Assembly (NCBI GenBank): GCA_025358455.1
Contig: JANYJP010000003.1
Location: 1-64,000, forward strand
From: Bacteroidales bacterium
GTDB taxonomy: Bacteria; Bacteroidota; Bacteroidia; Bacteroidales; VadinHA17
DNA: 64,000 nt
Direction of reading: 5' to 3'
Part shown: positions 27,610-30,528 of the stretch, piece after piece
How the letters are laid out: every line of letters starts with the position of its first letter
How positions within the stretch are numbered: position 1 is the stretch's first letter
Position numbers and translations under genes: made by a program
Notes under the pieces: generated by a model
Databases searched by the model: none
What the model was told of the DNA's origin: nothing
Seen by the model: only the letters and a program-made list of their open reading frames with translations

Positions 27610-27821
27610 GTATAGATGGTCTTTTACTTAGATTATTGATCTGAAATTACTCGAAATGACCTCTTTTATTTATGTTTGGATAACTATTTTTTATTATATC
27701 TAAGATGGCCTAAATACCTGATGTGCTAAATATTGGAAGCTACTAACCTGAAGCACTCCCGGCACATGGAGTTCTGAAGTTACTCTTTGCTGATTTTTAG
27801 TTAAAATTTGCGTTCATATTA

Positions 27822-27853
27822 TTTGGAAACTAATAATATGAGGTTTACTTTTG
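27822..27853 (+). promoter_or_regulatory. Bacteroidota promoter of the metal-transport operon
   Basis: TTTG (27822-27825), a 20-base spacer and TACTTTTG (27846-27853) match the consensus exactly. Transcription would start near 27860 and give a leader of about 125 bases. Confidence 0.75.
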
Positions 27854-27879
27854 TGCGCGTAAACAAATTTGAGAATTTA

Positions 27880-27912
27880 ATGGACGACGACCCGGCGAAT
27901 ATATTAATTTAA
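27880..27912 (+). CDS. Candidate leader peptide MDDDPANILI
   Basis: A ten-codon ORF about 20 bases after the predicted transcription start and 72 bases before the PRC/MgtE_N/CBS gene. Three aspartates followed by proline directly after the start resemble acidic/proline-rich openings that stall or destabilise ribosomes at low magnesium, such as the EPDP stretch in enterobacterial MgtL. No Shine-Dalgarno sequence precedes it, as is usual in this phylum. Coding is unproven: short ORFs arise by chance. Confidence 0.4.
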   Translation: MDDDPANILI

Positions 27913-27951
27913 CCTCTGGTATAGAAGGGTCCCCGGTCGAACTGGCCACTT

Positions 27952-27979
27952 CCTCCTGTATCAGAAACAGATAAGGAGG
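27952..27979 (+). promoter_or_regulatory. Hairpin masking the Shine-Dalgarno sequence
   Basis: CCTCCT pairs with AGGAGG, then one bulged G, then TATC with GATA, around a 7-base loop (AGAAACA). The right arm contains the whole AAGGAGG ribosome-binding site of the gene starting at 27985, so folding should block translation. Upstream, CGACC (27888-27892) and GGTCG (27935-27939) could form a second stem that overlaps the leader ORF. No known riboswitch class was recognised. Confidence 0.65.
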
Positions 27980-27984
27980 TGACA

Positions 27985-29259
27985 ATGACATCACTCACAA
28001 CATTTTATTTAAGCGGAATAATAGGTAAAGAAGCATTTGGCGCTGACGGCGATGCTATTGGTGTGATCAAAGATTTGCTGGTAAATACGGTTCCTTCAGG
28101 ACTAACAGATCCTAATAATCAACTTGTTACTGGCGTCAGGCTGAAGATACACAAAGAAACAAAATTCTATTCCTTTAGTAGTTTCAGGGTTGTAAAGGCA
28201 AGAGAAAAGCTAAATGTAAGCTGCACAGGTTTGGTTGCGCTTGGCAAGGATGATGTCGATAACGGACTATTACTCGTGGAGAATATTCTCGACAAACAGA
28301 TAGTTGACCTTAATGGCCGCAAGCTGGTAAGGGTTAATGATGTGAGACTTGCAACGCTGCCTACAGGAACATTTGCCATAGCTGTTGATATAGGCACTGA
28401 AGGCATTCTGCGAAGGATCGGGATCTCAGTTCCCATAAAAAGTCTTCTTTCTCTTTTCAATGTTAATATAGCTGCAAAATTCATTCTTTGGGATGATGTT
28501 CAGGCAATTGATCATTCAAATTCTAACATAAGGCTTTCTAAGAGTTATTCGAAACTGCATACTTTGCACCCTTCTGATCTTGCTGATATACTTGAAGATC
28601 TGGGTAAAAAATCCAGTATGTCAATATTCTCCTCCCTTGATGAAGAAAAAGCTGCTGATGTTCTCGAAGAACTTGAAACTCATACACAGGTTCATATTGT
28701 TGAAAATATGCCTGTAAACAAAGCAGCTGATGTGCTTGAAAAAATGCCGGCTGATGAGGTGGCAGATATTCTTGATGAACTTGAAGAGGAAAGAGCTGAA
28801 CAGCTTCTTAAAGAGATGGATACTGAGTCATCGCAGGAAGTAAGGGATTTGCTTGAATATGATGATGACCTCGTTGGTAGTATTATGACAACAGATTATC
28901 TGTCATTCAGCGCCTCCAAAACTGTTGAAGAGGTTCTTAAGGAACTAAGACTAAAGAAACCTGAATCTGTAGAGCTTTATAATATGTTTGTTACAGAGTC
29001 AAATGATGAACTTATTGGCACCTTTAACCTGCGCGACCTGGTTGTTGCAGAACCCAATGAAAGTGTTAGCCAGATAATGAAATCTCATCCTCTTTATCTT
29101 TTGGATAATCAGAAAACAGGCGCAATTGCTGAGCTGGTTTCCAAATACAACCTTCTTGCAGTCCCCGTTGTTGATCAGAATAATCTGCTTCAGGGAATGG
29201 TAGTAGTGGATGACGTTGTTGAAGATCTTATTAATAAAAGAAGGACCAAAAAACGATAA
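27985..29259 (+). CDS. PRC-barrel / MgtE N-terminal / CBS-domain protein
   Basis: Soluble protein without membrane helices. Residues about 1-170 hold two PRC-barrel-like units (second begins LNGRKLVRVNDVRL). Residues about 185-285 are MgtE_N helical repeats (LHPSDLADILEDLG, KAADVLEKMPADEVADIL). Residues about 290-420 are a CBS pair (VGSIMTTDYLSFSA; LLAVPVVDQNNLLQG). It is the magnesium-sensing half of MgtE without the channel. The track GTG 27979 is part of the Shine-Dalgarno sequence AAGGAGG; ATG 27985 is the right start. The Nramp gene follows after 12 bases, so it probably gates or senses metal for that transporter. Confidence 0.88.
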   Translation: MTSLTTFYLSGIIGKEAFGADGDAIGVIKDLLVNTVPSGLTDPNNQLVTGVRLKIHKETKFYSFSSFRVVKAREKLNVSCTGLVALGKDDVDNGLLLVENILDKQIVDLNGRKLVRVNDVRLATLPTGTFAIAVDIGTEGILRRIGISVPIKSLLSLFNVNIAAKFILWDDVQAIDHSNSNIRLSKSYSKLHTLHPSDLADILEDLGKKSSMSIFSSLDEEKAADVLEELETHTQVHIVENMPVNKAADVLEKMPADEVADILDELEEERAEQLLKEMDTESSQEVRDLLEYDDDLVGSIMTTDYLSFSASKTVEEVLKELRLKKPESVELYNMFVTESNDELIGTFNLRDLVVAEPNESVSQIMKSHPLYLLDNQKTGAIAELVSKYNLLAVPVVDQNNLLQGMVVVDDVVEDLINKRRTKKR

Positions 29260-29271
29260 CTTTAAGCGCTT

Positions 29272-30528
29272 ATGTTCAGACTTAGACTTAAGGAATCCAA
29301 ATTTCTTAAACAACTGGCTATATTCCTTGCTATTCTCGGTCCGGGAATTATTACAGGAAGTGTTGATAATGATGCAGGTGGTATTACAGTATATTCAGTT
29401 GCTGGTGCAGAATACGGGTACAGTCTTATATGGACCTTAATCCCTTCTTTTATTGTTTTGCTGGTTATCCAGGAAATGAACGCCCGCATGGGTATCGTTA
29501 CAGGTAAAGGCTTATCTGATCTGATACGTGAGAATGCAGGTATGAAAATTACATTTTTTATTTTCATAGGCTTGCTATTTTCAAACATAGGTAATACTAC
29601 AACTGAATTCGCGGGTGTTGCAGGAAGTATGGAGATATTTGGAGTAAGTAAATATATTTCGGTTCCTGTTGCAGCTATACTTGTATGGTTGCTGGTTGTG
29701 AAAGGCACTTATAAGATTGCAGAGCGAATATTTTTGATATTCAGTATGTCATTGCTTACCTACGTGGTATCGGCGCTAATGAGTAAACCTCATTGGTCAG
29801 AAATTGGAAGCTCAATTTTACATCCACAACTTGAAATGAATACACAGAGTCTTGCTATGGTAATTGCTCTTGTCGGAACTACAATTGCTCCGTGGATGCA
29901 GTTTTATATGCAATCTTCTGTAATTGAGAAGGGTCTGAAAATGAAGAACTACAGATACACTGTTATTGATATTACGGTGGGATGCATTGTAACTGTAGTG
30001 GTTGCATTTTTTATTATGGTAGCCTGCGGTTCAACATTGCACCCAAGTGGAATTCTGATAAACGAAGCAAAAGATGCCGCTCTGGCATTAAAACCTTTAG
30101 CAGGTGCACTCGCTTCACAGGTTTTTGCATTTGGTCTTTTTGTTGCGTCTGTTTTCTCTGCCACTATTTTGCCGCTCGCAACTGCTTTCTATGTTTCCGA
30201 AGCATTCGGGTTCGAAGCAGGTATTGATAAGAAATGGGATGAGGCAAAGGAGTTCTATACTTTATATACAGGGATATTGGTTATATCGGCCATTATCATT
30301 CTCATCCCAAATGCACCGCTTATTAAGATTTCAGTCTGGTCGCAGGTAATCAATGGAGTTTTACTTCCGGTTGTGCTGGTAAGCATGATTCTTCTGATTA
30401 ACAATAAAAAGATTATGGGTAACTATGTAAATAACCTCGCACAAAACATTATTGGATGGAGTGCAGTTATTGTTCTTACAGGGTTGTCCCTGATACTTCT
30501 TATTCTGCCTCTGATCAGCAAGCTCTAA
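29272..30528 (+). CDS. Nramp-family divalent metal transporter lacking canonical binding residues
   Basis: Polytopic inner-membrane transporter with about eleven helices. Helix 1 reads GPGIITGSVDNDAGGI (residues 23-38), where canonical Mn/Fe Nramps have DPGN; the asparagine is replaced by glycine. Helix 6 reads TTIAPWMQFYMQSS near residue 206, with alanine where the metal-selecting methionine lies. Such changes are known in Nramp branches that move other ions, including magnesium. Together with the MgtE_N-CBS partner 12 bases upstream this suggests a Mg2+-linked system, an inference. The 418-residue length is normal. Confidence 0.88.
   Translation: MFRLRLKESKFLKQLAIFLAILGPGIITGSVDNDAGGITVYSVAGAEYGYSLIWTLIPSFIVLLVIQEMNARMGIVTGKGLSDLIRENAGMKITFFIFIGLLFSNIGNTTTEFAGVAGSMEIFGVSKYISVPVAAILVWLLVVKGTYKIAERIFLIFSMSLLTYVVSALMSKPHWSEIGSSILHPQLEMNTQSLAMVIALVGTTIAPWMQFYMQSSVIEKGLKMKNYRYTVIDITVGCIVTVVVAFFIMVACGSTLHPSGILINEAKDAALALKPLAGALASQVFAFGLFVASVFSATILPLATAFYVSEAFGFEAGIDKKWDEAKEFYTLYTGILVISAIIILIPNAPLIKISVWSQVINGVLLPVVLVSMILLINNKKIMGNYVNNLAQNIIGWSAVIVLTGLSLILLILPLISKL

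Follow-up and report, generated by a model that had tools for sequence, protein, structure and literature searches.

A conserved acidic leader peptide and two mutually exclusive RNA helices as the probable Mg2+-responsive control of an MgtE_N/NRMT operon in Bacteroidales

The Shine-Dalgarno (SD) sequence of a transporter operon in a Bacteroidales bacterium is predicted to be buried in an RNA hairpin, which raises the question of what opens it and in response to which signal. The operon lies in the stretch of 64,000 nucleotides analysed here (contig JANYJP010000003.1, positions 1 to 64,000, hereafter the window). The initial annotation, made from the letters of the window, had read a leader of about 125 bases as an on/off translation switch belonging to no known riboswitch class and placed ahead of a metal-transporter operon. 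The elements of the locus are the following.

27822 to 27853, + strand: Bacteroidota-type promoter, read from the sequence, with a -33 element TTTG (27822-27825), a 20-nt spacer and a -7 element TACTTTTG (27846-27853)
27973 to 27979, + strand: Shine-Dalgarno sequence AAGGAGG of the transporter operon, seen in the sequence and conserved in relatives
27985 to 29259, + strand: regulated first gene, a PRC-barrel/MgtE_N/CBS protein of 424 aa (Pfam MgtE_N 3e-27, CBS 5e-14, PRC 1e-5)
29272 to 30528, + strand: second gene, an NRMT-type (Nramp-related) Mg2+ transporter with EleNRMT (7qia, E 2e-113) as its best PDB match

The promoter would place the transcription start at about 27859, in agreement with the leader length estimated before, and the same TTTGG...TTTACTTTTG arrangement also precedes the leader ORF described below in most of the homologous upstream regions. 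The operon adjoins, in divergent orientation, a serine palmitoyltransferase gene of the Bacteroidota type (NF047600, 26361-27548, - strand). The conserved start of the first gene is the ATG at 27985; the GTG start listed by the program at 27979 overlaps the SD. The expectation of a metal-transporter operon was borne out, the two genes encoding an MgtE_N/CBS protein and an NRMT-type transporter. In the alignment, the second gene product is much closer to EleNRMT than to MntH (1.6e-24) and carries both NRMT binding-site motifs, as DAGG (DxxG) and TTIA (TxxA). In NRMTs, DxxG in helix 1 and TxxA/T in helix 6 replace the DxxN and A/CxxM motifs (PMC8806188). NRMT genes are known to be paired with a gene for an MgtE N-domain, some of them under M-box control in clostridia (PMC4072509), and the window has this type of operon, with the MgtE_N and CBS gene directly upstream of the NRMT gene. 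In the partner protein a PRC-barrel domain stands ahead of the MgtE_N and CBS domains. No MgtE channel domain was found in the window's genome, which does have a CorA and an MgtA-type ATPase, neither of them preceded by an M-D-[D/E] leader.

The AAGGAGG ends 5 nt before the ATG, and its burial stands on re-examination with a modified geometry: in place of a 10-bp stem, the predicted fold of the 3' part of the leader (-18.0 kcal/mol) contains 8 bp (27947-27954/27974-27981) and an inner 4 bp (27956-27959/27967-27970). Pairing starts 5 nt further upstream than the limits of 27952-27987 given initially, and the ATG falls outside it. Folding of the whole leader is no better than that of shuffled sequences (z of 0.14 and -0.56), and the AAGGAGG word, which had been considered rare, is counted 7 times in the window for 8.1 expected, and yet is conserved at this site in relatives. 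Since the window leader alone is not unusually stable and the frequency of its SD word is as expected, the case for the hairpin rests on relatives. The 98 unique upstream sequences compared came from homologs in the genus, order and class of the window and from contigs of named genomes; across 86 homologous leaders the mean z of the hairpin region is -3.2, and the region also covaries. The CGACC/GGTCG pairing suggested as a competitor is not conserved, its downstream GGTCG being present in 7 of 87 leaders, and the conserved competitor is a helix formed by 27915-27929 and 27951-27965. When any downstream 5-mer complementary to codons 3-6 of the leader ORF is counted, 36 of the 87 leaders have one against 26 +/- 4 after shuffling, which is a weak hint at most. 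The failure to recognise yybP-ykoY, M-box or NiCo by eye is confirmed by Rfam covariance models, with no riboswitch at gathering thresholds in the window and none in 13 corA/mgtE loci scanned; a permissive scan of 27700-28150 returned a chance miRNA (E 3.9) as its sole match.

The leader would thus contain two alternative helices, designated A and B, with the following parts.

27915 to 27929, + strand: 5' arm of helix A (anti-anti-SD; 27915-27924 and 27926-27929), pairing with 27956-27965 and 27951-27954 at -21.0 kcal/mol
27933 to 27945, + strand: apical hairpin within helix A (27933-27937/27941-27945), with 70% of cells paired and 3 pairs showing two-sided changes
27947 to 27965, + strand: shared segment used by both helices, comprising the 3' arm of helix A (27951-27965) and the anti-SD arm of helix B (27947-27959)
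27967 to 27981, + strand: 3' arm of helix B, masking the SD (the hairpin noted originally), 8+4 bp, with 87.6% of cells paired

Helix A is predicted when the transcript is folded up to the SD, its 3' arm being the anti-SD, and helix B when the part after the leader stop is folded. Because they have the anti-SD segment in common, the two helices exclude each other; in the folding models helix A would sequester the anti-SD and free the SD, and helix B would mask it. Mean z values over the 86 leaders are -2.85 for helix A and -3.18 for helix B. A covariance alignment of homologous leaders had been recommended as a check, and in an alignment of 34 sequences, scored against 500 shuffles, the pairing is conserved and both helices carry two-sided changes: 12 pairs in helix A (covariation 0.267 versus 0.206 +/- 0.013 in the shuffles) and 5 in helix B (0.153 versus 0.118 +/- 0.008), neither score being reached in any of the 500 shuffles. 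Sliding the pairing partners abolishes the covariation of both helices, and RNAalifold chooses helix A unprompted. The idea of an on/off switch of translation by SD masking is therefore upheld in its principle, as two mutually exclusive helices that covary in homologous leaders. At equilibrium, the mean accessibility of the SD is 0.20 with the whole leader free and 0.14 with a ribosome at the stop codon; the shift goes in the predicted direction in 70 of 86 leaders, but is small. Equilibrium folding of these 86 leaders usually gives helix B even without a ribosome and does not support a purely thermodynamic switch. Since helix B is favoured in either state, the switch would have to be kinetic, helix A presumably forming during transcription before the SD is made.

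In the upstream part of the leader, what is conserved is not an RNA fold but an ORF, whose variation is that of codons, and the data favour a translated leader peptide over a ligand-binding aptamer as the sensor.

27880 to 27912, + strand: leader ORF ATGGACGACGACCCGGCGAATATATTAATTTAA, encoding MDDDPANILI and a stop, conserved in homologous leaders and proposed as a Mg2+-sensing leader peptide

In 87 of the 98 unique upstream regions an ORF of the form M-[D/E/G]-x-x-P, with S in a single case, is found 93-134 nt ahead of the gene. Its consensus is M-D-[D/E]-x-P, with Asp2 in 85, Asp or Glu3 in 80 and Pro5 in 86 of these 87. Asp is replaced by Glu at codon 3 in 23 of the 87, codon 4 is unconstrained (G, D, Y, L, E, V, F), and in the Pro codon the first two bases are fixed and the third varies (T43, G41, C2, A1). 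The MD[D/E]xP form is found within that interval in 78 of 98 regions against 1e-4 per shuffled region, a contrast between related sequences that is not an independent-sample probability. Conservation is limited to the first five or six residues, the peptide being 8 to 25 residues long; two Chitinophagaceae have MDEGEP and MDESEP leaders. The pattern ATGGAYGAYNNNCCNGCG occurs a single time in the window's own genome, at the leader ORF, and in one relative (L032, identical to record L068) the ORF and the hairpin are both lost. A short ORF with an acidic and Pro-containing N-terminus and with codon periodicity is thus present in the great majority of leaders, its translation being predicted. The Asp2 codon is GAC in 78 of 85 leaders despite A+T-rich surroundings, and codon 6 (27895-27897 in the window) is GCG in 66 of the 68 leaders with Ala there, a preference that suggests an additional constraint at the RNA level, beyond the peptide model. 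On contig CAIKVR010000027.1 the MgtE_N gene is present twice (L095 and L099), the copies being close together in opposite orientation, and each has its own MDDDPAIRNLV leader. On contig JAPLDG010000205.1 (L085), the leader ORF MDDLPARSILNY... is only about 35 nt before the gene and the hairpin region is absent, by either a deletion or an assembly error.

The ORF and the helices are tied together by the position of the stop codon. In the window the stop codon occupies 27910-27912 and the 5' arm of helix A begins at 27915. Helix A was found in 85 of 86 leaders, and its 5' arm was counted as masked when at least 40% of it is covered by a ribosome with its A site at the stop codon. With this definition, a terminating ribosome masks the arm in 98% of the 85 leaders, as compared with 22% and 29% for the other two frames, and in 81 of 85 the arm stays free with the ribosome at codon 5. 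This placement of the stop codon relative to helix A is our best argument both for translation of the ORF and for a fold that would depend on whether its translation is completed. By comparison and prediction, the leader has mutually exclusive structures whose formation would depend on where the ribosome stands, as in mechanisms of the mgtL/mgtQ type.

Taken together, these data lead us to propose, with a probability of about 0.75, that the MgtE_N/NRMT operon is controlled by a leader-peptide translational attenuator most probably set by Mg2+. The ribosome would initiate on the leader ORF. With ample Mg2+, it would elongate to the stop codon and cover the 5' arm of helix A; helix A being blocked, the anti-SD would be free to pair with AAGGAGG in helix B and the operon would be off. 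When Mg2+ is scarce, the ribosome would be destabilised by the two or three acidic residues after the initiator Met and by the subsequent Pro (intrinsic ribosome destabilisation); it would stall or drop off at about codons 2-5 and leave the 5' arm of helix A free. Helix A would then form first on the growing transcript and capture the anti-SD, so that the SD would be open and the operon on. What the comparison of leaders shows is an ORF followed by two helices that exclude each other, the placement of its stop codon and a link to Mg2+ importers; that Mg2+ is the signal, that the ribosome drops off instead of stalling, and the on/off polarity are what we infer. Asp and Glu at the N-terminus have a destabilising effect on the ribosome, which is offset by high Mg2+ (PMC9718836). 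In the leaders the acidic residues at positions 2-3 and the Pro at 5 would act where no preceding chain fills the tunnel. Several points were counted against this reading. Two or three acidic residues are fewer than in strong artificial destabilising runs, and the CorA gene of the window's genome, like 12 of 26 CorA loci at the class level, has no such leader. The equilibrium predictions, the GCG preference at codon 6 and the corA leaders without Pro described below were also weighed against it.

Further members were sought by a pattern search, which gave, besides the transporters reported here, mostly chance matches inside genes. In a genome of the same genus without NRMT, a MDEDPCRCNLDVKSP leader stands before a gene (L178) that matches MgtE_N and within which the contig ends, and a second MgtE leader is MDEDSYKLKKSYQPFL (L215). 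Two CorA leaders are MDDYPADGNQRVKP and MDDYPPER (L179, L180), and an M-D-[D/E] leader precedes 24 of 31 CorA loci (an order-level sample of 30, plus L179). The A/B arrangement is predicted in 23 corA and mgtE leaders, with mean z of -3.4 and -3.2. Same-genus genomes lacking NRMT have the leader before MgtE (G004) or before CorA (G030 and G016, with MDDYYLCC and MDDYHLCR, respectively); Pro is missing from some corA leaders, such as MDDYYLCC and MDDYYYSLVLN. In the class-level CorA sample (n=26), seven loci are of the SD-switch type, seven have an overlapping out-of-frame start and 12 are without leader. The overlapping starts (L245, L247, L248, L249, L251, L252 and L257) are ATGGACGATGATN-like and read MDDD, MNDD or MEDD. 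The corA ATG is nested 7 nt within them and there is no intervening hairpin region, possibly a different use of the same peptide. Genes for MgtA-type ATPases, examined as a fourth family, had the leader in none of 18 cases with readable upstream DNA and served as an internal control. The genes behind the leader thus carry the NRMT, MgtE_N and CorA domains of importers, as in mgtL/mgtQ-type systems, and the same operon is elsewhere preceded by an M-box.

This last arrangement occurs in Desulfosporosinus acididurans (L116) and in a Clostridiales MAG (L112), both with the same MgtE_N/NRMT operon, where an M-box (RF00380; 103 and 97 bits, respectively) lies upstream of the leader ORF. The M-box is followed by a terminator-like hairpin, by an ORF that has an SD of its own and finally by helices A and B, which mask GGAGGG; the ORFs are MDTDPDGRCFYLNIAWGEF or MDIDPSNRSLSQNFIWRDYI (MDTDP/MDIDP). 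From the M-box to the A/B helices the series spans 1593-2005 in L116 and 702-1077 in L112, as two Mg2+ checkpoints in tandem. The hairpins of these two leaders were considered as intrinsic terminators, a reading set aside because GGAGGG is followed after 7 nt by the gene starts, GTG and TTG, which makes SD masking at least as likely. Another locus (L103) has the M-box alone. The presence of the M-box before this operon indicates that in Firmicutes the operon answers to Mg2+ through a known sensor, which the leader peptide accompanies.

Several other explanations could be issued for the same data. The real two-state structure with its SD masking, the metal-transporter operon and the GCG bias in codon 6 would all suit a riboswitch proper, in which a ligand (Mg2+, Mn2+ or another) would bind directly to the leader RNA and drive the change between helices A and B, the ORF being incidental. 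We consider it unlikely: Rfam gave no match in the window or in the corA/mgtE relatives, nothing is conserved beyond the ORF codons and helices A and B, the conserved upstream block follows codon rules with its stop codon placed relative to helix A, and seven CorA loci retain the ORF in the form of an overlapping frame. The leader peptide could also sense charged Asp-tRNA or Pro-tRNA by classical attenuation, not Mg2+. Its conserved codons are those for Asp and Pro, and a ribosome stalled at codon 5 would act identically on helix A. This proposal is nevertheless quite improbable, since the regulated genes belong to three unrelated families of Mg2+ importers and not to Asp or Pro genes, the D to E changes at codon 3 (23/87) would be intolerable for a sensor of Asp-tRNA, some corA leaders lack the Pro, and the leader co-occurs with the M-box.

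A third possibility is a small functional protein encoded by the ORF that would act in trans, perhaps on the transporter, the hairpins being a separate matter. The N-terminal conservation is indeed very strong, but it stops after five or six residues in peptides of very variable length, the stop is locked to helix A and the same start precedes unrelated transporters, which makes a trans-acting product very improbable. As for a constitutive SD hairpin that would tune translation without switching, the dominance of helix B in equilibrium predictions fits it; the conservation of helix A, which covaries more than B and excludes it through the anti-SD, together with the ORF and the placement of its stop, leaves this last explanation hardly any credit.

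A wider reading can also be proposed, which we regard as fairly likely: across Bacteroidota and some Clostridia the ribosome itself would be the Mg2+ sensor, an M-D-[D/E]-(x-P) leader having been recruited before at least three unrelated importer families (NRMT, MgtE, CorA), retained through importer swaps and used with more than one mode of coupling. These modes would be the SD switch, the SD switch behind an M-box, and the overlapping out-of-frame start, ATGGACGATGATN, before CorA in another family. Reach across lineages is here that of the sampled genomes. In the openly licensed literature, leader-peptide sensing of Mg2+ was found only in enteric bacteria (mgtL, mgtQ, corL), with an animal channel mRNA as an analogy; we found there no leader-peptide Mg2+ switch in Bacteroidota, nor the peptide motif, the stop-linked SD switch, the use with three importers, the phyla or the tandem with the M-box. 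The working principle is already known from enteric bacteria. The same acidic peptide recurs, with the same stop geometry, before three importer families in Bacteroidota and beside the M-box in Clostridia, which bears on whether this kind of sensing is an isolated case or a widespread solution. Bacteroidota include dominant gut bacteria, and to our knowledge few cis-regulatory leaders are known for this phylum. If the proposal is true, Bacteroidota would gain a Mg2+ regulon in which no Mg2+ riboswitch has been found, an importer behind such a leader would be predicted to carry Mg2+, and the natural leader variants would make the drop-off hypothesis testable.

Among known systems, mgtQ of Salmonella depends on its acidic residues for the translation of mgtB, through alternative stem-loops masking the RBS (PMC8092293). 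Its acidic residues stand at positions 2 and 5 and its Pro at position 4. Like the leader studied here, it is a very short acidic and Pro-containing ORF before a Mg2+ importer, with alternative stem-loops of which one masks the importer RBS; control is translational and, as proposed for ours, on in low Mg2+ (PMC8092293). In mgtQ, the ribosome must open stem 1:2, which overlaps the ORF, so that loss of the start codon lowers mgtB; in the Bacteroidota leader, helix A is at or after the stop and blocked by the finishing ribosome, so that loss of the start codon should raise expression. Moreover, mgtQ is intergenic in mgtCBRU and mgtB encodes a P-type ATPase, whereas the leaders described here precede NRMT, MgtE and CorA in Bacteroidota and Clostridia.

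The EPDP sequence of mgtL raises mgtA at low Mg2+ by intrinsic ribosome destabilisation (PMC11282234, PMC11552253). The two leaders share an acidic and Pro-containing N-terminus, two exclusive folds and, as proposed for ours, inefficient translation at low Mg2+ that turns the importer on. They differ in the output, Rho-dependent transcription termination for mgtL and SD masking in the window, and in the peptide, EPDP versus MDDxP, with no common ancestry implied. The corL leader of enteric corA is also an ORF before CorA, whose translation is inverse to corA expression (PMC11552253). Its action is Rho-dependent, and it has fewer acidic residues. We know of no sequence shared between corL and the Bacteroidota leaders. 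The M-box (ykoK leader, RF00380), present ahead of the ORF in L116 and L112, is the regulator of this same MgtE_N/NRMT operon in clostridia (PMC4072509); it is an aptamer RNA with a transcription terminator, found neither in the window nor in the scanned Bacteroidota leaders. In animals, the Mg2+-sensitive uORFs of TRPM7 are reported to restrain the translation of a Mg2+ channel when Mg2+ is high (PMC4227784); this system is eukaryotic, has no RNA switch of the A/B kind, and is an analogy only. Peptides of 8 to 25 residues are too short for a test of homology, and the resemblance between the Bacteroidota and the enteric leaders is likely the result of convergence.
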